A DNA stretch of 20,945 nucleotides from a virus. This document shows positions 7,740-18,338 of the stretch, piece by piece (the first letter of the stretch is position 1; each line of letters opens with the position of its first letter). A program made the translations under genes and the position numbers. The DNA lies in IMG/VR virus record IMGVR_UViG_3300030060_000526, positions 1 through 20,945 of that record; one strand, written 5' to 3'. The notes beneath the pieces were generated by a model. That model worked only from the letters and a program-made list of their open reading frames with translations. It did no database searches and had not been told where the DNA came from.

Positions 7740-10490
7740 ATGGCGCGTGTATCAACGATTATAACAAACTTTCGCGCTGGAGAGTTTTCGCCAAGGCTTG
7801 AAGGCCGTATTGATCTTCAAAAGTACAACGAAGCGGCAAAAGAGCTTACCAACATGATAAGTTTTCCACAGGGTGGCATCACACGCCGCCCTGGTTCTTA
7901 TTTTGCTGGTGCGTCAAAGGCTGGCGGCAAAGTGCGCCTTGTAAACTTTGAGTTTAGTGATGAGCAAGCATATGTGCTGGAGTTCGGTGAAAACTACATA
8001 CGCTTTTTCAAAGACGAGGGCATACTTACTGAGACTGCCAAAAACATCACGGCTGTTACGCAAGCAAACCCAGCAGTCGTAACGTCAAGCTCTCACGGCT
8101 TTTCCAACGGTGACACGGTATTCATCACTGGCGTTGTTGGAATGACAGAGATCAACAACACAGAGTTTACCGTAGCTGGCGCGACAACAAATACTTTTCA
8201 GCTTTCTGGCATCAACAGCAGTGCGTTTACAGCTTACGGTTCCGCTGGCACAGTTGGAAAAATAGTAGAAGTTACAACTACTTACACAGAAGCGCAGGTG
8301 TTTGAGTTGAATCATGTGCAGTCTGCTGACGTTTTGTTTCTTGCGCACAAAGACCATGAGCCAGCAAAGCTAACAAGAACTACGGCAACCAGCTTTACCT
8401 TATCTGACATTGATTTCATTGATGGCCCGTATGAGGATGAAAACTCTACGACTACAACCATAACCTCAGACGCAAACACTGGCACAGTAACGCTTACCGC
8501 ATCTGCCGACTTATTTGACGCATCAAAAGATGTTGGTTCTATATTCCGGTTCCGTGATGTTATTGAGGTGTCTCACCCAGCGTGGGCAACTGGTGATTCA
8601 TATTCACAGAATGACATCGTGCATCACAACGGTAACGTCTACAAAAAAACAGACGCTGGCACAAATGAGTCAACTGGCGCACAGGCTCCTGTGCATCTGT
8701 CTGGTTCAGAGGTTTACGGTAATCATACTTGGCAGTTTCAGCACAATGGCACTGGCTTTGTGAAAATTACTGCTGTGACTAACGCAACAACAGCAACGGC
8801 AGTGGTACAAAACAGCGGCACAAACAGTGTGATAGACAACCTTGTGCTGCCTAAAAACGCAACAGATGGCACAACTAGATGGTCAAGGGGTGCGTTCAGC
8901 ATTAGAAACGGCTTTCCTCGCGCTGTGGCCTTCTATGAGCAGCGTTTGTACTACGCAGGTACCACAGCCCAGCCACAGACCATCTTTGGCTCTGTAAGCG
9001 CAGATTTTGAGAACCATACTCCTGGCACTACAGATGACGCAGCCATCAATGTAACGATTGCGTCAGATCAGGTGAATGTCATCAAGCATTTGTTGCCTGC
9101 ACGTTTCTTGCAGATATTGACTACAAGCTCTGAGTTTACCTTGTCTGGCGGTGCTGGCAGTGAGCCTGTGACGCCCACCAACGTCAACGTGCTAAGAGAG
9201 ACAACCTTTGGCAGCTCTGATGTGCGCCCTTTGCGTGCAGGAAACAGCACCATCCTTGTGCAAAAGGGTTCTGAAAAAGTCAAAGAGATTACCTTTGATC
9301 TTGATACAGACGGTTTGTTGGGGATTGATCTGACTGTTTTAGCAGATCATGTAGCGCGTGGCGGCCTTACAGATATGGTTTGGCAGCAAGAGCCAGAACT
9401 TATCCTGTGGTTTGTGCATACCGATGGCACGCTTGTTGGTCTTACATACGACAGGGCAAACGGAGCAGTTGGCTGGCATCAGCATGTCTTGGGCGGTGTA
9501 AGTGCAAACTGCACAATAACTGTAAGCGATTATGCAAACATAGCTGTTGGCACAACAATTACATTTACCAAGAGTGATGGCACGACTGTTACATTTACAT
9601 CAGAGGCTGCTGGTAGCTCAGACCCAGCATCATCATTAGGCTTTCGCCCGAACACATCAAATAACGTAACAGCAGACAATATCTTCACCGCTATCAATGC
9701 GCATGATGATTTTGTAGTTGCAAATCCAAGTGCGGCAGTTGTTACTGTGCAGGAAAGCAGCCCAACGCCTGGTGGGTTGTTGTCATGTGTAAGCTCTGAC
9801 ACTACACGCCTTGCAACAACTAACGAGGCAGCACCGATAGTAGAAAGCATAACAGCAATACCAAGCGGTGCAGAAGATCAGGTGTATCTGTCTGTCAAAC
9901 GTATCATCAATACCAGCACTGTGCGTCACATTGTATATCTCAAGTCAGTTGACTTTGGCACAGCGGTAAGTGATGCCTTCTATGTGGACAACGGCCTCAC
10001 ATACAGCGGATCAGCAACAACAACCATATCAGGTCTGAACCACCTTGAGGGGGAGGTTGTATCAATACTTGCAGATGGCGCAGCGCACGCTGTAAAGCAG
10101 GTGTCTGGCGGCAGGGTAACGCTGGATGTTAGCACAACAAAGGCGCAGATTGGGTATAGTTACCAGTCATTTGTTGAGACTTTGCGCCTAGAAGCTGGTG
10201 CAGAGGACGGCATATCACAGGGCAAGATCAAAAGAATACATGGTGTTACAGCGCGTTTCTTGAACAGTGTGGGCGCAGAGGTTGGGCCAAGCCTTACCAG
10301 CCTAGATAGAATACCATTCAGAGATAGCAGCATGGCAATGGACGAGGCCGTGCCTATGTTTACTGGCGATAAAGAAATATCTTTCCCATCTGGGTACGAC
10401 AATGACGCGCATGTGGTCGTGCGCCAGAACCAGCCATTGCCTATGACAATCCTTGCAATCATGCGGAGGTCAAACACTTTTGATGCTTAG
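7740..10490 (+). CDS. Tail nozzle / tail tubular protein B-like protein with inserted modules
   Basis: A 916-aa product, probably the nozzle below the adaptor. The N-terminus (TNFRAGEFSPRLEGRIDLQKY, FPQGGITRRPGSYF) is the recognised start of podophage nozzle/stabilisation proteins. Middle hallmarks are GFPRAVAFYEQRLYYAGT and TPTNVNVLRETTFGSSDVRP. Three extra modules are visible. Residues about 105-172 look like the 'E1 FCCH-like' beta unit common in phage tails (SSHGFSNGDTVFITGV). Residues about 279-320 resemble a CBM5/12-type motif (WATGDSYSQNDIVHHNGNVY). Residues about 588-697 look like a Thr-rich inserted domain. At 916 aa it is longer than T7 gp12 (about 794 aa), consistent with insertions. 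The gene ends overlapping the next one. The nozzle role is inferred from order and motifs. Confidence 0.78.
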   Translation: MARVSTIITNFRAGEFSPRLEGRIDLQKYNEAAKELTNMISFPQGGITRRPGSYFAGASKAGGKVRLVNFEFSDEQAYVLEFGENYIRFFKDEGILTETAKNITAVTQANPAVVTSSSHGFSNGDTVFITGVVGMTEINNTEFTVAGATTNTFQLSGINSSAFTAYGSAGTVGKIVEVTTTYTEAQVFELNHVQSADVLFLAHKDHEPAKLTRTTATSFTLSDIDFIDGPYEDENSTTTTITSDANTGTVTLTASADLFDASKDVGSIFRFRDVIEVSHPAWATGDSYSQNDIVHHNGNVYKKTDAGTNESTGAQAPVHLSGSEVYGNHTWQFQHNGTGFVKITAVTNATTATAVVQNSGTNSVIDNLVLPKNATDGTTRWSRGAFSIRNGFPRAVAFYEQRLYYAGTTAQPQTIFGSVSADFENHTPGTTDDAAINVTIASDQVNVIKHLLPARFLQILTTSSEFTLSGGAGSEPVTPTNVNVLRETTFGSSDVRPLRAGNSTILVQKGSEKVKEITFDLDTDGLLGIDLTVLADHVARGGLTDMVWQQEPELILWFVHTDGTLVGLTYDRANGAVGWHQHVLGGVSANCTITVSDYANIAVGTTITFTKSDGTTVTFTSEAAGSSDPASSLGFRPNTSNNVTADNIFTAINAHDDFVVANPSAAVVTVQESSPTPGGLLSCVSSDTTRLATTNEAAPIVESITAIPSGAEDQVYLSVKRIINTSTVRHIVYLKSVDFGTAVSDAFYVDNGLTYSGSATTTISGLNHLEGEVVSILADGAAHAVKQVSGGRVTLDVSTTKAQIGYSYQSFVETLRLEAGAEDGISQGKIKRIHGVTARFLNSVGAEVGPSLTSLDRIPFRDSSMAMDEAVPMFTGDKEISFPSGYDNDAHVVVRQNQPLPMTILAIMRRSNTFDA

Positions 10491-10905
10491 AGTATGCAAG
10501 TTTTCAAGAGAGCATATAGATCATCTGAAACTGATGTTTGAGTTTTCAGATGCTGGCAGAAAGGCATTGGTAGAACACAAAGATATGAACGGATATTCAC
10601 TATTCGATCAAGATGAAGTAATAGGTATAGGTGGCATACACAATATATGGGATCATGTGGGTGAGGCATGGCTGCTGTTGGGCAAAGATGCCGTAACAAA
10701 GCCCACATCTGTGGCAAGGCATACCGCGTATATGTTTGATTATTTGCAAGAAGAGTTTGATTACAAAAGAATACAGGCAAGTATCGCTGTAACTGATAAA
10801 ACTGCAAAGCGTTTTGCTGAGTGGCTTGGCTTTCAAAATGAGGGTGTAATGAAGAAGTATGGGCCAGATGGCACAGATTATTACCGTTACGCAAGGGTGA
10901 TGTAA
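10483..10905 (+). CDS. GNAT-fold protein resembling T7 gp13
   Basis: A 140-aa product with a GNAT (N-acetyltransferase-like) plan: an N-terminal strand and helix, VIGIGGIHNIWDHVGEAWLLLG (central strands), an Arg-led helix region, then RIQASIAVTDKTAKRFAEWLGFQNEGVMKKYG, the typical late GNAT helix and strand. T7 gp13, needed for virion assembly, has a matching late segment and the same location before the internal virion proteins. A strict acetyl-CoA P-loop (Q/R-x-x-G-x-G/A) is not evident, so it may be non-catalytic. I choose the ATG at 10483, which overlaps the nozzle gene by 8 bases; GGAGG at 10465-10469 is 13 bases away, so TTG at 10480 is a possible alternative. The stop overlaps the next ATG by one base. 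Confidence 0.75.
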   Translation: MLRVCKFSREHIDHLKLMFEFSDAGRKALVEHKDMNGYSLFDQDEVIGIGGIHNIWDHVGEAWLLLGKDAVTKPTSVARHTAYMFDYLQEEFDYKRIQASIAVTDKTAKRFAEWLGFQNEGVMKKYGPDGTDYYRYARVM

Positions 10906-11414
10906 TGGAGGCAACCACCATTGCCGCAGCAGCCACGACTGCAAGCACTATACTTCAGTTTAAGGGCAATATGGCATCTGCCAAAGCCACGAGGCAAGCC
11001 GCCGAATACAATGCGCAACTTGCTGAAAACGAAGCTGTTGTTCTGCAAACGGCTAAAATAGATCAGGAAGCAAACCTTAGACGGGCAAACGAGAGGCTCA
11101 CTGGTCAGCAAGTAGTAGCCACCGCAGCGTCTGGCGTTGAGGTATCAGGAAGCCCCTACTTAGCTTTGGCTGACTCATACTTTGCCATGGAGCGTGATGC
11201 TTTACGCATACAGTACGCGAGTGATGTTGAAACAGCAGGGCAGTTAGCACAAGCAGCTATGGCGCGTGCGGCTGGAAACGCAAGGGCATCAGCGTTCCGC
11301 ACAGCAGCTTACACAACCCTTCTGGACGGTGCGGGGCAGGCGGCAAGCATAAGGCAGCAACAAGACTTTTTTGAGCTTCAAGACAGATACAGACAACAAG
11401 AGTTGGATAGATAG
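10905..11414 (+). CDS. Internal virion (ejection) protein, T7 gp14-like
   Basis: A 169-aa Ala/Gln-rich, nearly all-helical protein. It opens with a small-residue apolar segment (TIAAAATTASTILQF), then long helices: KATRQAAEYNAQLAENEAVV, a turn VEVSGSPYLALADSY, and DVETAGQLAQAAMARAAGNA. Size and position match T7 gp14 (about 196 aa), which is ejected ahead of the DNA and inserts in the outer membrane. Internal-protein families share the 'GV..sGSp' turn seen here. The start overlaps the preceding stop by one base, so it is translationally coupled to the gp13-like gene. Confidence 0.75.
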   Translation: MEATTIAAAATTASTILQFKGNMASAKATRQAAEYNAQLAENEAVVLQTAKIDQEANLRRANERLTGQQVVATAASGVEVSGSPYLALADSYFAMERDALRIQYASDVETAGQLAQAAMARAAGNARASAFRTAAYTTLLDGAGQAASIRQQQDFFELQDRYRQQELDR

Positions 11415-11416
11415 AG

Positions 11417-14062
11417 ATGCCAAAGATTCCTTTGTATGCAAGAGGTATGGGTTCACAAGTAGACCTTGCTACAGGGTCTTTGGGGCCAAGTGCGCCAACA
11501 GAAGCCTTTGCAGCACCAGGACAGGCAATGGCTAGGGCTGGGCAAGCTATAGGGCAGACTGGCAGACAGTTTGCCAAAAATATGATGGAGTTTGATAACG
11601 CCAGTAAAGACCTTGAGTTTAAGTTTCAGAAAGCAAGAAAAGACGAGCAGACCAAAACCTTGGCTCAAAAATATTCTGCTCAAGCATACGAACAGTCTGA
11701 CACCTATACCTTGGAAAGCACTGAGTCAGACATGGACAAAATGGTTAGTGGGCTGACAGACTCTGTGCAAACGCCAATACTAAATGAAATCAAAGGGTTG
11801 GGGCTAACACCATCTCAGACAACAGCGATTAGCGACTCTGTTTTGCAAACAATGCGTTTTAAGACTGCTGATGCAAAGAAGGTGTCTTTCCAAAACATGA
11901 GGCGCGAAGGATCTGCTGCCTCAAATGCCGCGCTTGAAGCAGATTTTCAAGAGGCAAGCAGGGCCGTGACTCTTGAGGATCTTAGTGCCATAACCGCAAA
12001 TGGGTTGTCTGTCATAGATGATGGAGCGGAAAAACAATACAGCCTAAATTACTCAAGAAAGTCCTTTACGGCAGAGGTGCAGTCAAGGTTTTTTAATGGG
12101 AGGCTTAGGTCTGTAGATAATTTTGTCGATCTAAAGGAAATGGATGACTTTGTTTCGGCAAGCTCAGCGTTTGCTTCTGAATCAATAAAACAAGGCATCT
12201 TGAGTGGCATTGAAGCAAAGCGAACAGAGCTTGAAGATAACAAGAGAGATGAGGTTCGGGATATTTTGCTTGGCGCAAATTTGACTGGAGATGAAAAGGC
12301 ACAGGCTTTGGTGCAGATGAGAGATGTTGAAGCTAAGTTTGTATCAATAGAAAGAGAAGATGAAATTATAAATATTGACTTGCGAGAAACAGGTGCAAAA
12401 TTTCGTACTGCATTGGCAAGTCAGTTTGAGCAAGATTTTAAAAACTCACAAGCAACAGCAGAGAAGCAGTTGGTTGATACGATTTTCCCCACGATTGTTA
12501 GTATGAATCGTAATGAATTAAATGCTTTAAAAGATGAAGCGGAGACCCTTACTGGGCGTCTTGATGGTGCGGATCGTGGTGTGGCAAAGCTGTTGATAGG
12601 CGATGTAAATGACCGTCTAAAAAAGATGGATGCCGAATTAGAAGATCAAATAAGAGCAGACACTGATGCAATAAAAACAAAAATTGTCAGCAGCAAAGGT
12701 GTAATTGATGAATCAACCGAAAAAATGATTCAGAAGGTTTCGCAAAGCCTTGGTATTTTAGGCGAGGACAATATGGTTCCGCAAAATACATTCAACGAAA
12801 CCATGGATGGTTTGCGTGGGGCTGGTGTTTTGTACTCTAGCATTAAGTTTGGCGGCCCAACTCAACTTGCCGCAGCAAGGCGTGCTATTAAGGATGAAAT
12901 AACCAATGCGTCTACTGGAGAAGAGACAAGGATTGCAGGTGAAAAGTCAAAAAGTTTTGAGGGGATGGTCAGCTCCAGAAAGACAGAAATTGAAAACGAC
13001 CCTGTTAAATTTATTCAAGAAGATTTTAAAGATCAAGAAAAAGACCCTGCCACTACCGATGATCTTATATCTTTGCAGAGGCAAATGGGCATAGCCCCAA
13101 TAGACATAAGACTAACATCAAATGCAGAGCTTACAGCTTTTCAAGCACAATATAATGCCCCAGAGTTGACCGCAAAAGAAAAGTCAGAGCTTGGGATTGC
13201 TTTTATTTCAAAGTTTGGCATTGAAAATGAAGATAGAATTATGCGGAATCTTATGGCGTCAGGAGTTTTTGGCTCTGCTGAAACAGCCCTGTCAAATTCT
13301 TTCATAATTGCCAACCCTGATAATGTGGGTAGCTTTGATGTAGAGGCAGCAAATCGCCCAGAAGTTGTTAAAAGTTTAAAAGACCAGTTAGGCTCAACTA
13401 CTATCAAAGAAATAACCGCTGAAGTTATGACGCAAAACGCAGAATACACAGGCAGTGTTATAGGCGGCATGTCTGACAGCGTTGTTTCAAGAGGTGCCAC
13501 AGGATCACGCATGTTGCACACAGCGGCTATGAATGGGATGATTTCAAACGTAGCCGCTTATTACATGCAAACTGGATTAAGTGTTGAAAAAGCTGTTGAG
13601 AAAGCCTTGGATACTGTGGTTTACAGTCAGTTTTCTTTTGCTGAGGTAAATGGCAAGCCTCTACGCATGGTTAAAGGTTTTGAAAACTCATCAGCAGAAA
13701 TTGGTAATGTTTTGAACTCCCTTGTGAGTGACGAAAAGTCCAGAGAGATGATCGTTGGTTTTGCAAACATACCGCCTGTAAGCGGCAATGTTGATGTAAA
13801 CCAGAAGTACAAAGAAGATTTAGCGCAGGGTTATTGGGTGACAACCTCAGATCACAAGGGCGCATACCTTGTAGACCAAACTGGCAACATGGTTACAAGA
13901 AGAATTGACCCTGGCCCAACAGCTATTTCACCAGACCAAGCGTTTGTAACGGTGAAGTTTTCTGACATCCTGCCTTTGATTGCAGAAATAGAGCAAGCCA
14001 CAGGAACGGCGGCGCAAAAGATAACACGGCGCAACGAGATAGCCAGAAGGCTGCTACAGTAA
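11417..14062 (+). CDS. Large internal virion (ejection) protein, T7 gp15-like
   Basis: An 881-aa, mostly helical, charged protein without signal peptide or clear membrane segment. It sits after the gp14-like gene and before the gp16-like pair, the place of T7 gp15 (about 747 aa), which helps form the DNA-ejection conduit across the periplasm. Visible features are GQAMARAGQAIGQTGRQFAKN at about residues 35-55, a helical FDNASKDLEFKFQKARKDEQ, and long Glu/Lys/Asp-rich helices through about residue 600. No lytic or protease motif was found. Sampled rows in the interior (about 12,360-13,260) are clearly more AT-rich than the portal and capsid genes. The stop overlaps the next ATG by one base. The role is based on order, length and composition. 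Confidence 0.72.
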   Translation: MPKIPLYARGMGSQVDLATGSLGPSAPTEAFAAPGQAMARAGQAIGQTGRQFAKNMMEFDNASKDLEFKFQKARKDEQTKTLAQKYSAQAYEQSDTYTLESTESDMDKMVSGLTDSVQTPILNEIKGLGLTPSQTTAISDSVLQTMRFKTADAKKVSFQNMRREGSAASNAALEADFQEASRAVTLEDLSAITANGLSVIDDGAEKQYSLNYSRKSFTAEVQSRFFNGRLRSVDNFVDLKEMDDFVSASSAFASESIKQGILSGIEAKRTELEDNKRDEVRDILLGANLTGDEKAQALVQMRDVEAKFVSIEREDEIINIDLRETGAKFRTALASQFEQDFKNSQATAEKQLVDTIFPTIVSMNRNELNALKDEAETLTGRLDGADRGVAKLLIGDVNDRLKKMDAELEDQIRADTDAIKTKIVSSKGVIDESTEKMIQKVSQSLGILGEDNMVPQNTFNETMDGLRGAGVLYSSIKFGGPTQLAAARRAIKDEITNASTGEETRIAGEKSKSFEGMVSSRKTEIENDPVKFIQEDFKDQEKDPATTDDLISLQRQMGIAPIDIRLTSNAELTAFQAQYNAPELTAKEKSELGIAFISKFGIENEDRIMRNLMASGVFGSAETALSNSFIIANPDNVGSFDVEAANRPEVVKSLKDQLGSTTIKEITAEVMTQNAEYTGSVIGGMSDSVVSRGATGSRMLHTAAMNGMISNVAAYYMQTGLSVEKAVEKALDTVVYSQFSFAEVNGKPLRMVKGFENSSAEIGNVLNSLVSDEKSREMIVGFANIPPVSGNVDVNQKYKEDLAQGYWVTTSDHKGAYLVDQTGNMVTRRIDPGPTAISPDQAFVTVKFSDILPLIAEIEQATGTAAQKITRRNEIARRLLQ

Positions 14063-15843
14063 TGGTAGATTTTTTTGTACCAGAGCAAAAATACGATCAA
14101 AACGCTTTTGACAACTATTTTGATGTGTCAAAGGCTGGCACTCTTGATGTGCTTGGCGCAACGCTTGATGAAACCCTGTACTATAACCCTCTAAGCGCAT
14201 TGAACCGCACGTTTGACCAATACTTAGGGCCAGGTGCAAATGGTCGGGTGCTATCTTCTGATGAGTTTCGTGGCAGTCAATACTTTCGTGAAGGCATAGA
14301 AGTAGATGAGAACGGCATCACAGAGGGTTTGGCAAACTTGCTTTCGGAGCGTCACGACAGGCGCGAGAACTTTAGATTTACCCTAAACAGATCACGCGGA
14401 GGCTTTGGGCTAGGTGCGGCGCAGTTTGGCACAATGCTGGCTGGCTCTGTGCTTGACCCCCTCAACGTGGCATCAGCGTTTATCCCAGCCGTAGGTCAGG
14501 CGCGTATGGCTACTATGGCAGCACGTTTTGGCAAGACTGGCAGCAGATTGATGGCTGGTGCGATAGATGGTGCCGTTGGCGCAACCGTGCTGGAGCCACT
14601 TGTCATCGGTCAGGCTTATTTGGAGCAAGATGCTGACTATGGCCTCATGGACAGCTTTTTAAACGTCACATTCGGTTCAGTACTTGGCGGTGGCTTGCAC
14701 GTTGGATTCGGCAAAATATCTGACAGGATAGAGGCCAGCAGGGTAAGCGATGAGGCTTTGGCACGCAGCGTTGCACAAGCAGTCACGGATCAGCCAATAA
14801 CCGCTGGTCGATTAGTCGAGCAACAAGAAGCAGCAAAAGACGCAGACATTATTGCTAGGGCAAACGAGCGTTTAGCCCAGGATCGCTCTGTGAGGGGCGT
14901 AGAGCGTAGGTTTGACCCTGAGACTGGTGATATTATAGAAGAAACTGTTTTGCGCGGTGATGAGCCTCGCCAGCGGCCAGCAGAGCCAAGACGCAAAGGC
15001 AGGGCGCGTCCACCACAGTTGCGTGTTGAAGAGCCAAAGACACTGATACAATACATCAGGGCAAAGGGTGGAATAGATCCTAACAGCACGGGTGCCGCTG
15101 ACTTAAAAAAAGACATCCCAGCGGCAAAGGCTGGTAAGTTTTATGTAAGCGCAGCAAAGGGTGGACGTTCTGTTGATGACATGCTTACAGCCGCTAGAGA
15201 GGATGGCTATTTACCAGCAGCTATTGAGGGCGTGCCTGATGAGATTGATATAAACGATTTTATCAAAGCTGTGCGAGAGGACAAGGCTGGAAACAAACAA
15301 TATTCAGCAGCAGATCAAAATGCTGTAGATGCCTATAAAGCTGCACAAGACCTTCAAGAGTTTTTGAATAGGCGTGGGATTGACCCAACAGGCTTGAGCG
15401 AGACAGAGCTTGATCGCGTAATTGCAGAAACTGAGTTGCTTGAATACAACCAAAATGCTGTATCTGGCTTAGAGCAACGTGATGTGGAGCCGCAGTCTCT
15501 TGAAGGCTCACCGCTTACCCAGCAAGAGTCTTTGAACGCTCAGAATGAGACGCGTATTCAAGATTACAACCTTGGCGTTGATGCAGACCAAAAGCCGAAA
15601 CTTGACGAGATGGACGCTGCTGGCATGGATCTAACAATCCAAGAGTTTCAAGATACTGTTGATGAGATAGCGTTGCTTGAACAGGATTTAGAAATATTGC
15701 GTGCTGATGTTACTATACCCGCTGACATAGATGAGGACATTCGTATAGCAGATGAGGCTTTGCGCCGTGCAGATGAATATATGGATGAAGCTGCTAGAAC
15801 AGCCGCAGTCTGTGTAAACAGAAATGGCAGGAGCGTAGGATGA
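14062..15843 (+). CDS. Ejection protein, N-terminal part of a gp16-like pair
   Basis: A 593-aa product. A charged N-terminus leads into a long Gly/Ala-rich apolar region at about residues 113-217 (RGGFGLGAAQFGTMLAGSVLD, MAGAIDGAVGATVLEPLVIG, FLNVTFGSVLGGGLHVGFG) that looks membrane-active and recurs in podophage internal virion proteins. After about residue 225 it is charged and disordered or helical, ending in a coiled coil (about 525-590). I see no transglycosylase motif, unlike T7 gp16, whose N-terminus is a lytic transglycosylase. With the next gene it totals 1,425 aa, close to T7 gp16 (about 1,318 aa). It is coupled by ATGA to the 832-aa gene, which suggests matched amounts. The role in membrane crossing is inferred. 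Confidence 0.72.
   Translation: MVDFFVPEQKYDQNAFDNYFDVSKAGTLDVLGATLDETLYYNPLSALNRTFDQYLGPGANGRVLSSDEFRGSQYFREGIEVDENGITEGLANLLSERHDRRENFRFTLNRSRGGFGLGAAQFGTMLAGSVLDPLNVASAFIPAVGQARMATMAARFGKTGSRLMAGAIDGAVGATVLEPLVIGQAYLEQDADYGLMDSFLNVTFGSVLGGGLHVGFGKISDRIEASRVSDEALARSVAQAVTDQPITAGRLVEQQEAAKDADIIARANERLAQDRSVRGVERRFDPETGDIIEETVLRGDEPRQRPAEPRRKGRARPPQLRVEEPKTLIQYIRAKGGIDPNSTGAADLKKDIPAAKAGKFYVSAAKGGRSVDDMLTAAREDGYLPAAIEGVPDEIDINDFIKAVREDKAGNKQYSAADQNAVDAYKAAQDLQEFLNRRGIDPTGLSETELDRVIAETELLEYNQNAVSGLEQRDVEPQSLEGSPLTQQESLNAQNETRIQDYNLGVDADQKPKLDEMDAAGMDLTIQEFQDTVDEIALLEQDLEILRADVTIPADIDEDIRIADEALRRADEYMDEAARTAAVCVNRNGRSVG
15829..15833 (+). promoter_or_regulatory. Ribosome site supporting a real start at 15840
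   Basis: AGGAG lies 6 bases before the ATG at 15840, within the end of the 593-aa gene. It argues that the split between the two gp16-like genes is a true reinitiation junction rather than a sequencing frameshift. Confidence 0.65.
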
Positions 15844-18338
15844 GCATTAAGATCTGTAGTGCAGAGCTACGCAAGATTGCGCAGGACAAAGATATAGCTG
15901 TCGCGCAGGATGAGATAGATGCCATCCTTAAAATCATGCAAGACAAGATTGATCGCCGTGACGGTGTGTACGGTGACAGTGAGCTTGGCGAACTCATTGA
16001 AGAGGCCAAAGAATTAGCCAAAAGAGCAAGGATTGAGTCTGCTATACAAAAGCGCAACCGTCTCATCAATGCACGCGCATACGCAACGGTGATGACTGCA
16101 TTGCGTCAGGAGCCTAATGATCCTGGTAAAGCGTTGTCTGCTATCCTTGTTGGCGATGCAAGGCGCAGTCTGTATAGCATTGACGCCAAGCAGCGTAGTA
16201 TATTTTTAGACAACACGGGCGCATTGGTAGGCGAGTTAAAACGAAATGATTTGCTAGATATTTTCCGCTCCAATGAGCTAGATGAAAAAATTTATCAAGA
16301 AATGTTTGATGGCCTTGGAAGCAGTGGCAGCAAGGAGGCGCGTCAAATTGCAGAGACAATTAAAAAGGTACAGAAGCGTCTGTTAGACCGCAAGAATAGA
16401 AACGGTGCAAACATTGGTGAGCTTGAGAATTATGTCGTGCGCCAGCACCATGACCCATTGTTGATACGCGGCAAAGGCACAGAAGAAGATAAACAAGCGT
16501 GGATTACTTTTGTATCTGAAAACATGGACATAGAAAAAACTATGGCTAACAAGCCAGACGACATGACTGAGGTTGAGTTTCTTGGCTCTATGTATGACAA
16601 CCTTGTTAGCGGCAACCATATGAAGGCTGACGGTGTGGGCGGTATGGGCGGTGTGCAGCCAGAGTTTAAGGGGCCAGTAAACCTTGCCAAACGCCTAAGT
16701 GCGCAGCGCATAATCCACTTTAAAAATGGCAAGTCTGCGCTGGCATACGCAAACAGATTTAGCCGCATGAAACTTTCTGAGGCCGTCTACCAAGGCATCT
16801 CTCATGATGCGCAAGCCATAGGTTTGCTTGAAACTTTTGGCACAAACCCAAAAGCCATGTTCGACAGAATAATTACAGAAATAAAGCCAAAGGGCGTTGC
16901 AAAGCCCATAAAAGAAGGACGCTTGAGAAACCAGTTTGCAGAGTTGGATGGAACAACCCGCGCACTAGGCGCAACCCAGCCCATACTGAATACAACGGTT
17001 ACTTACGCTGGCATAGCTGCTGGCTTTCGTATGTTGCAATCAATGGCAAAGCTAGGGTTTGCCACGATTTCATCGTTTTCAGACATTGCAACCAAGGCAG
17101 CGTTTATAAACGCAAACACAGAACGGAACATTTTTGGTGCTTACGCTTCTGCTTTGCGTGACACATTCCGTTTGTTCAACAGTAAAGAGCAAAAAGAGTT
17201 GGCATACCTGCTAAGTGTTGGTGTTGAAAACGAGTTAGCAGACGTTCACGCCAGATTTGGTGCAAATGATAGCGGCCCTGGAATGATCTCCAAGGCACAT
17301 CAGTTGTATTTTAAGCTGAATGGTATGCAATGGTGGAACAGCACACAAAAGGTTGGCATTGCGCGTATGTTATCTGCTGACCTTGCTAACTACAGCAACA
17401 GATCCTACAACGCGATACCACCAGAAACACGTAGGTTGCTTAGTCTTTACGATATAAATGAGGCAGAGTGGTCTTTGTTCCGTGGCATGGACATGAAGGC
17501 GGCTGATGGGCGCAAGTATCTGGTGCCTGATATCGCTGATGAAATAGCTGTTGAAAAGATAGACCCGTTGATCGCGCAACGCACAGGACAGCTTGATATA
17601 ACAGACAAGATGCGCCAACAGTTTCGTGATGACCTACGCAGTAAAATATCAGCTTACTACGCTGATAGTGCAGACACGGCTATCCCAACCCCAGGCGCAA
17701 GAGAGCGTGCTATTATGAACCAAGGGTTGCCACGCGGTACAGTTATGGGTGAAGCAATACGAATGATTATGCAGCTTAAAGGCTTTCCAATCACCTATGT
17801 TACAAAAGGTTTGAGCAGGCAAAAAGCCTCATCTGGATATTATGGCGTTGCAAAGATGATGGTTGGCTCAACAATGATGGGGTATATGTCCGTTACGCTG
17901 AAAGACATTTTGAAGGGCAAGGAACCTGCGGAAGTTTTTAGTGATGATTACACCTTAAATAAAGAGCTGTTGTTCCGTGCCTTTACACAAGGTGGTGGTG
18001 CAGGAATCTACGGAGACTTCATATTTGGTGAGTTTAACAGGTATGGTCAGGGACCGCTTGAAACGCTTGCTGGCCCTACCTTTGGCACCGCGGCAGATGT
18101 GTTAAAGATTTACGGCAAGTTTCGCAGTGGTGACGATGCGGCAGCGGAAACAGTAAGGTTGGCTATGCGCAACATTCCTGGCGCAAACTTGTTCTATGCA
18201 AAGTTGGCGTTAGACTACTTGTTCATGTATGAGCTTACAGAGTTTGCAAATCCAGGCTACTTCAAGCGTATGGAAAGGCGCATGAAGAAGGACACAGGGC
18301 AAGAGTTTTACTTTCCACCATCACAGTATGTACGATAA
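15840..18338 (+). CDS. Ejection protein, C-terminal part of a gp16-like pair
   Basis: An 832-aa product beginning at ATGA within the previous stop. Its N-terminal 100 residues are helical and highly charged (EIDAILKIMQDKIDRRDGVY). Next comes a domain recognised in marine podophage internal proteins: LENYVVRQHHDP, RLSAQRIIHFKNGKSALAYANRF and a following IGLLETFGTNPKAMFDRI. Apolar helices are near residues 397-420 (MLQSMAKLGFATISSFSD) and 668-692 (AKMMVGSTMMGYMSV). The C-terminus is compact, ending FYFPPSQYVR. Together with the 593-aa partner it corresponds to the last and largest ejection protein before the fibre gene, which probably crosses the inner membrane during DNA entry. No enzyme motif was found. 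Confidence 0.72.
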   Translation: MSIKICSAELRKIAQDKDIAVAQDEIDAILKIMQDKIDRRDGVYGDSELGELIEEAKELAKRARIESAIQKRNRLINARAYATVMTALRQEPNDPGKALSAILVGDARRSLYSIDAKQRSIFLDNTGALVGELKRNDLLDIFRSNELDEKIYQEMFDGLGSSGSKEARQIAETIKKVQKRLLDRKNRNGANIGELENYVVRQHHDPLLIRGKGTEEDKQAWITFVSENMDIEKTMANKPDDMTEVEFLGSMYDNLVSGNHMKADGVGGMGGVQPEFKGPVNLAKRLSAQRIIHFKNGKSALAYANRFSRMKLSEAVYQGISHDAQAIGLLETFGTNPKAMFDRIITEIKPKGVAKPIKEGRLRNQFAELDGTTRALGATQPILNTTVTYAGIAAGFRMLQSMAKLGFATISSFSDIATKAAFINANTERNIFGAYASALRDTFRLFNSKEQKELAYLLSVGVENELADVHARFGANDSGPGMISKAHQLYFKLNGMQWWNSTQKVGIARMLSADLANYSNRSYNAIPPETRRLLSLYDINEAEWSLFRGMDMKAADGRKYLVPDIADEIAVEKIDPLIAQRTGQLDITDKMRQQFRDDLRSKISAYYADSADTAIPTPGARERAIMNQGLPRGTVMGEAIRMIMQLKGFPITYVTKGLSRQKASSGYYGVAKMMVGSTMMGYMSVTLKDILKGKEPAEVFSDDYTLNKELLFRAFTQGGGAGIYGDFIFGEFNRYGQGPLETLAGPTFGTAADVLKIYGKFRSGDDAAAETVRLAMRNIPGANLFYAKLALDYLFMYELTEFANPGYFKRMERRMKKDTGQEFYFPPSQYVR

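Follow-up and report, generated by a model that had tools for sequence, protein, structure and literature searches.

Among the ejection proteins of short-tailed phages, gp16 of T7 is a single chain of 1318 amino acids (aa) that is free of cysteine, carries an N-terminal lytic transglycosylase domain of the SLT type (residues 15-127; PF01464, 1.7e-31) and is matched over its whole length by the PHROGs family phrog_342; it sits between gp15, the tunnel protein, and the tail fibre. Here this and other described systems are compared with a locus in a stretch of viral DNA, bases 1-20945 of the 21,315-base IMG/VR record IMGVR_UViG_3300030060_000526 (hereafter the window; the record is a fragment), in which two overlapping genes encode proteins of 593 and 832 aa, p593 and p832, that together correspond to a gp16-like protein without an SLT domain. 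Each chain has one cysteine, close to the break between them, and this lone-cysteine pair recurs among the split relatives.

Several described phages share the arrangement to varying degrees. In the Salmonella phage epsilon15 (Uetakevirus), gp16 and gp17 have a gene each, the two lying next to each other in the same order and likewise behind a gp15-type protein; gp17 matches the p832 profile (5.5e-87), and the sole cysteines are C629 of the 634 residues of gp16 and C5 of gp17. The epsilon15 system differs in that its gp16 has no match to the p593 profile, it occupies a long branch in the p832 tree, and its gp15, annotated through HHpred as lytic transglycosylase-related, has two cysteines. The gene order of the pelagiphage HTVC100P is again the same, its annotation lists both products of the split pair as internal virion proteins, and both halves also match in Skadi and other pelagiphages, although the p593 and p832 homologues of this type are about 25-40% identical and cysteines go unmentioned in the annotation. 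Pseudomonas phage Ab31 (gp15/gp16) and Vibrio phage 1.182.O (genes 16/17) have both the split pair and the cysteine pair, the latter phage differing in that its upstream half contains ART-PolyVal. No cysteine is present in P22 gp7, gp20 or gp16. The virion RNA polymerase of N4-type phages, another large ejected protein, is also reported to lack cysteine, a property explained there by passage through the tail (PMC3915230); it differs in being a single chain with no paired cysteines.

The assignment of the window proteins to this group rests on profile comparisons. p593 matches phrog_3003 (1.2e-36) and, more weakly, phrog_342 behind its endolysin domain (9.2e-12), and p832 belongs to phrog_684 over its full length (1.5e-152, residues 6-829), so that both halves match the profiles of the phrog_684/phrog_3003 pair; the gene order agrees as well. 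In HHalign comparison of the p593 family with six gp16 sequences (Prob 94.3, E 9.7e-8), residues 22-238 of p593 align with residues 221-440 of T7 gp16. A first-pass annotation of this DNA had described a gp16-like protein split into two separate genes, joined by ATGA with AGGAG six bases upstream. The gene arrangement is borne out by the open reading frames (ORFs) and the sequence, and the identification by the HHalign result and by natural fusions of both parts, described below. That annotation had also matched the pair to T7 gp16 in length and position. The position stands, but the lengths (1425 and 1318 aa) agree only approximately and in part fortuitously, as the pair has no counterpart to roughly the first 220 residues of gp16 and contains in addition a variable region of about 300.

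Lone cysteines on either side of the break

In the window, Cys584 is the only cysteine of p593 and Cys6 the only cysteine of p832, and none occurs in the 881-aa protein (p881) and the gp14-like protein encoded ahead of them. The scaffold protein is also free of cysteine; two to five cysteines each are found in the capsid and portal proteins, the fibre, the terminase and both tail tube proteins. The first-pass annotation missed this pair, which is the strongest feature of the junction.

The break itself is old and common. p593 and p832 are separate genes in 12/12 of the relatives first examined, which include three phage records and the nearest relatives found (G001 and G008, with 92.8% and 97.1% identity in p593). 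In a wider set, composed of the best 80 loci of each of two scans, a fusion is seen in 0/152 loci holding both parts, duplicates and the first relatives included; the first-pass annotation had proposed looking for one fused gene in relatives, and such ORFs do exist, but in another clade. Removal of duplicates leaves 105 distinct junctions, with a 4-base overlap in 60 and a 1-base overlap in 22 if the start closest to the stop is used. A strict Shine-Dalgarno core is found within the 20 nucleotides (nt) upstream in 28/105 junctions, as compared with 114/5250 random 20-mers from the same loci.

Both cysteines occur together, flanking the break, in 105/105 junctions. Complete p593 homologues, available for 101 of these junctions, have exactly one cysteine in every case (101/101), 3-9 residues from the C terminus, with no cysteine among the 60,370 residues outside the last 14. 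Among the 98 p832 homologues of more than 780 aa, 94 have exactly one cysteine, at residue 3-12, and beyond residue 16 there are four cysteines in 81,789 residues. Starts were set by script, as the one nearest the stop for p832 and nearest the profile start for p593, and a few may be off. The protein in the 881 position is cysteine-free in 95/95 and that in the gp14 position in 73/82, whereas other same-strand frames of at least 250 aa from the same loci, taken as a control, contain 435 cysteines in 104,742 residues (0.415%). These counts are not independent because the homologues are related: single-linkage clustering gives 55 clusters at 70% identity and 28 at 50% for p593, and 36 and 14 for p832. 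Cys584 is nevertheless one of four invariant columns in a set of 72 p593 proteins made non-redundant at 85% identity.

The pattern extends beyond these scans. Both cysteines are present in 8/8 further phage records, one of which, MW202510, looks metagenomic. This count includes phage vB_EcoM_APEC, whose gp5 (L215 5561-5779) was read not from its annotated start but from an in-frame GTG at L215:5561, 73 codons earlier, which restores the N-terminal cysteine. In prophages, both are found in 20/20 loci with a recognizable upstream ORF, out of 26 loci, with the p832 start of L222 uncertain; upstream frames were here read from stop to stop, and the count covers the presence of both cysteines, further ones ahead of the start being possible. 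Of the remaining loci, L233 and L237 have both cysteines by eye, L234 has no upstream part, L241 and L243 are partial, and L230 is fused. As a separate observation, small proteins, probably bound to the membrane, may have their genes between those of the two halves in the prophages L218 (4966-5265), in which the cysteine pair is kept, and L222 (5762-5998).

The lone-cysteine pair flanking the split is a feature found here and is absent from published family descriptions. The words "cysteine," "disulfide," and "split" are absent from the main text of PMC8954989, as are "cysteine" and "disulfide" from PMC11784390. The pair was likewise not found among the listed matches of the literature on cysteine or disulfide in ejection proteins, a body with subscription papers mostly outside it, and novelty is to that extent unproven.

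Fused relatives and a possible interchain disulfide

What becomes of the cysteines when the break is absent can be seen in a small clade of fused proteins. One prophage locus, L230, from a Burkholderiales metagenome-assembled genome, has an open-ended 1162-aa frame, in which the p832 domain is preceded by about 316 residues, and no separate upstream partner; it is cut, and the p593 domain is not in the part seen. A search of IMG/VR with L230 as query returned 27 loci, eight of them holding a p832 domain. Four distinct complete ORFs (L244, L245, L248, and L250) have the p593 and p832 domains in one chain of 1818-2304 aa, counted from the first Met, in the order p593 N-terminal domain, cargo, p832 domain; the other copies repeat these (L246 and L251 equal L248, L247 equals L244, and L249 is 98% identical to L250). 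These relatives, with both domains in a single ORF, show that p593 and p832 belong to one unit.

From the first Met on, no cysteine occurs in this clade (nine loci, five distinct proteins, four of them complete). In an alignment of the N-terminal region, the column of the p832 cysteine is Cys in 67/67 split proteins and Tyr in 5/5 fused ones, with the neighboring pattern kept, while the C-terminal tail of p593 and its cysteine are not recognizable in the fused chains. When 90 p832 domains are placed in a tree, the seven fused rows, which include two identical ones, cluster together with support of 100; their group is nested in a set of 23 rows, 16 of them split (quick tree method, midpoint root). 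Since the fused rows are a single supported group among split rows, one fusion from a split ancestor would be the simplest reading. The single-chain T7-type gp16 is also cysteine-free, in 6/6 sequences. Release of cargo by a built-in peptidase was considered for the fused clade and rejected, the HExxH motif being found in 0/5 fused proteins and in 0/72 split p593 proteins.

Probably, though by no means surely, p593 and p832 are halves of one gp16-like ejection protein joined at the split by an interchain disulfide between Cys584 and Cys6. The protein would be made as two chains from the overlapping genes, both halves would be present in the virion and ejected, and the C-terminal cysteine of p593 would pair with the N-terminal cysteine of p832, linking the halves at the place where a peptide bond would otherwise be. 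The bond could form within the virion after its release, or when the proteins reach the periplasm, which is oxidizing. The near exclusion of cysteine from the rest of the chains would suit passage through a narrow tail, in which a stray disulfide might block threading. A more elaborate proposal, which is unlikely, has the disulfide form already in the released virion, so that the 593- and 832-residue proteins would exit through the tail as a single chain whose order and ratio are fixed, and has reduction in the host cytoplasm free the upstream half with its cargo, which in relatives includes ADP-ribosyltransferase and other effector domains. If this were true, chains devoid of cysteine apart from one redox switch would be the phage equivalent of the two-chain toxins that part on reduction.

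A number of points weigh against the disulfide. The proposed bond rests on sequence, where a p593-p832 bond, homodimer bonds and a metal site look alike; sequence searches of the PDB gave nothing better than E 0.09. The match of p832 to the C-terminal half of gp16 is weak (HHalign Prob 14.3, E 0.0019), though colinear (residues 69-798 to 555-1282), and this part of the homology is unproven. A disulfide would not last if the junction ends up in the reducing cytoplasm. Long cysteine-free ORFs are not rare in these phages, as 60/196 control frames lack cysteine, and some members of the family have extra cysteines: two rather than one in 4/98 p832 homologues, a second (844) in the p832 of TPWB-05, and two each in the 881-position protein of phiv142-3 and in epsilon15 gp15. 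Finally, as the fused clade is one group in the tree, it supplies in essence a single instance in which fusion goes with absence of the cysteines, T7-type gp16 being a distant further one.

The most serious alternative, possible though on balance unlikely, is that the two cysteines are functional without pairing with each other, serving instead in homodimer disulfides, in a core metal site or in redox-sensitive docking to a third protein, with the AAxxC motif around the p593 cysteine as a docking or packaging signal. Partners cannot be assigned from sequence, and in the eight further phages and epsilon15 the C-terminal cysteine is kept even though the upstream partner has no p593 profile match in 6/9, the downstream partner matching the p832 profile in 9/9. 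Set against this are the co-occurrence of both cysteines at the break in 105/105 junctions and the replacement of the p832 cysteine by Tyr in 5/5 unbroken proteins, because of which mutual pairing fits best. The AAxxC motif also resembles a lipobox, but lipidation was set aside, the motif being C-terminal.

Hydrolases, cargo, and the remaining alternatives

No hydrolase in p593, p832 or p881 is needed to explain the locus. The first-pass annotation had seen no transglycosylase in these three proteins, and Pfam agrees, finding neither SLT nor any other hydrolase in them or in 17 other window proteins (small overlapping ORFs left out). Its conclusion that the phage must breach peptidoglycan with an unrecognized domain or an enzyme encoded elsewhere does not follow. 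According to PMC8954989, gp15-like proteins of K1E and K1-5 have lysozyme activity, and P22 and Sf6, whose gp16-like proteins also have no transglycosylase, show no conserved hydrolase. Absence of a hydrolase from p593 and p832 is thus ordinary, as most relatives have no recognized one in these proteins and P22 and Sf6 are alike in this.

Among the relatives, hydrolases come and go. The PF01464 profile has no match in the 21,315-base record, itself a fragment, or in any of the 12 relative records (0/12), and matches in 2/50 records, one of them below the curated cut-off; PF08291 matches in 5/50, four times in frames of 152-166 aa and once within a frame of 833 aa that occupies the 881 position. 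The 881-position proteins (66 when made non-redundant at 75% identity, 59 of them aligned) include, among the 59 scanned with Pfam, one with SLT and one with M15, the latter in L092. SLT is found in the 881 position in L117 and BUCT708 (9.7e-16) and in the 593 position in TPWB-05 (1.3e-6). The type of free endolysin is also exchanged, being an M15 peptidase in G001 (21455-21904) and a phage lysozyme in G006 (1309-1758) and G009 (8528-8977); in G004, inspection by eye showed no free hydrolase. Within this system the hydrolase is a mobile component, and in the window phage it is possibly encoded elsewhere. A side observation concerns the T7-like Vibrio phage ICP3, whose 1127-aa gp16 (L205 574-3957) seems, judging from its length and alignment, to start after the transglycosylase domain.

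That an unrecognized peptidoglycan hydrolase is hidden in p593, p832 or p881, as the first-pass annotation had suggested, is improbable. Such a domain could be sought in the variable region of p593, where none is recognized, and SLT or M15 does appear in related slots of some phages. However, no hydrolase is among the Pfam families with a match (E up to 0.001) to any of the 72 homologues of p593. AlphaFold2 models of the whole p593 and p881 chains, built from input alignments of 61 and 46 rows, have a predicted local distance difference test (pLDDT) of 76 and 86, and a Foldseek search of the PDB with both gave no match at E up to 0.001, a result that is weak as disproof, whole chains only having been compared. 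The first row for p593 in VIA-align is an FtsEX-EnvC chain (8hd0_C) at Z 5.6, under the level that is meaningful for helical matches.

p881 instead shows some resemblance to the T7 tunnel protein. Its first-ranked Foldseek row is the T7 ejectosome tunnel, 7k5c_A (E 3.9e-3, prob 0.66), and VIA-align gives Z 8.2 to the T7 core chains 9jyy_G and 7eyb_A and 7.7 to 8vb2_E. The model suggests a gp15-type tunnel protein, but the match is not conclusive because the protein is helical and unrelated rows reach Z 9.0, a designed protein standing above the T7 chains; a profile comparison of p881 with T7 gp15 was unsuccessful.

The variable region of p593-type proteins carries diverse cargo in relatives. 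Among the 72 homologues, an ADP-ribosyltransferase (ART) exoenzyme domain occupies this slot in six (L090, L093, L095, L097, L103, and L122, of 1113-1183 aa), with NUDIX also in one of these and a sub-threshold HipA-like match in another, and ART-PolyVal is present in one homologue. ART, NUDIX, and ddrB-ParB domains occur in p593 homologues or proteins of the same position, alongside the single SLT, and ART-PolyVal is found in 4/5 fused proteins scanned. Polyvalent proteins (Iyer et al. 2017) unite a number of enzymatic effector domains in an injected chain, and matches to DdrB-like proteins were obtained from BFVD. Window p593 has no cargo domain recognized by Pfam. Injected polyvalent effectors have been proposed (PMC5512222 and PMC9503650), and the variable cargo of p593-type proteins fits that idea.

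It is very improbable that the cysteines arise only as a side effect of the limits that the overlapping start, stop and ribosome site set on the nucleotide sequence. An Arg three residues past the p593 cysteine (46/72) does often seem to take its codon from the AGG of that ribosome site. The pair is kept, however, where the genes lie 192-289 nt apart (L094, L102, L218, and L240), and since it persists in such loci it is not a by-product of gene overlap; the spaced loci largely refute this explanation, the window cysteine codons fall outside the overlap, and C584 is invariant in the non-redundant set. The split as a sequencing, frameshift or assembly artefact of a fused gene, for which the existence of fused relatives might be cited, deserves practically no weight and is ruled out by the separate genes of the 12/12 first relatives, with their three phage records, and of the 105 distinct junctions.

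Layout of the locus and neighboring genes

Coordinates of the features discussed are collected in the table below.

Features of the split ejection-protein locus, in window positions
Feature	Position	Strand	Basis or remark
gp14-like internal virion protein, cysteine-free	10905-11414	+	phrog_418 1.1e-14
p881, cysteine-free, gp15 position, probably periplasmic tunnel	11417-14062	+	AlphaFold2, Foldseek, VIA-align
p593, N-terminal half of split gp16-like ejection protein	14062-15843	+	ORF, 593 aa; phrog_3003, phrog_342, HHalign
Conserved N-terminal domain of p593, residues 22-238	14125-14775	+	matches gp16 region behind transglycosylase
Variable region of p593, about residues 273-580	14878-15801	+	no recognized domain; model without PDB match
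Cys584 codon, sole p593 cysteine, 9 residues from C-terminal end	15811-15813	+	sequence; homologues
AGGAG, ribosome-binding site of p832, 6 nt ahead of ATG	15829-15833	+	sequence
ATGA, stop-start overlap of p593 and p832 genes	15840-15843	+	sequence
p832, C-terminal half of split gp16-like ejection protein	15840-18338	+	ORF, 832 aa; phrog_684 over 6-829
Cys6 codon, sole p832 cysteine	15855-15857	+	sequence; homologues

Three further genes of the window invite comment apart from the ejection proteins. Positions 10453-10905 encode a GNAT-type acetyltransferase that shares phrog_308 with T7 gp13, and T7 gp13 may itself be a degenerate acetyltransferase. Positions 7740-10490 encode a tail tubular B-like protein with an E1_FCCH match (1.4e-10) and a CBM_5_12 match below cut-off; in several relatives this protein has about 800 aa, and the best alignment covers only its first 585 residues. 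Between terminase and portal, a 129-aa protein (1163-1552) gives a sub-threshold match (2e-4; 21.7 bits, cut-off 25) to HlyC, the family of RTX toxin acyltransferases, and adjoins a Gly/Pro-rich protein of 349 aa.

In short-tailed phages it is an open question how large ejection proteins get through the tail and reassemble. The cysteine pair, kept in all intact junctions examined and missing in the fused clade, offers a simple and testable handle on it, and phages such as epsilon15, Ab31 and the pelagiphages are already cultured. If the disulfide between p593 and p832 is real, it would explain how a split gp16 acts as one unit, and it may show when and where the two halves meet.

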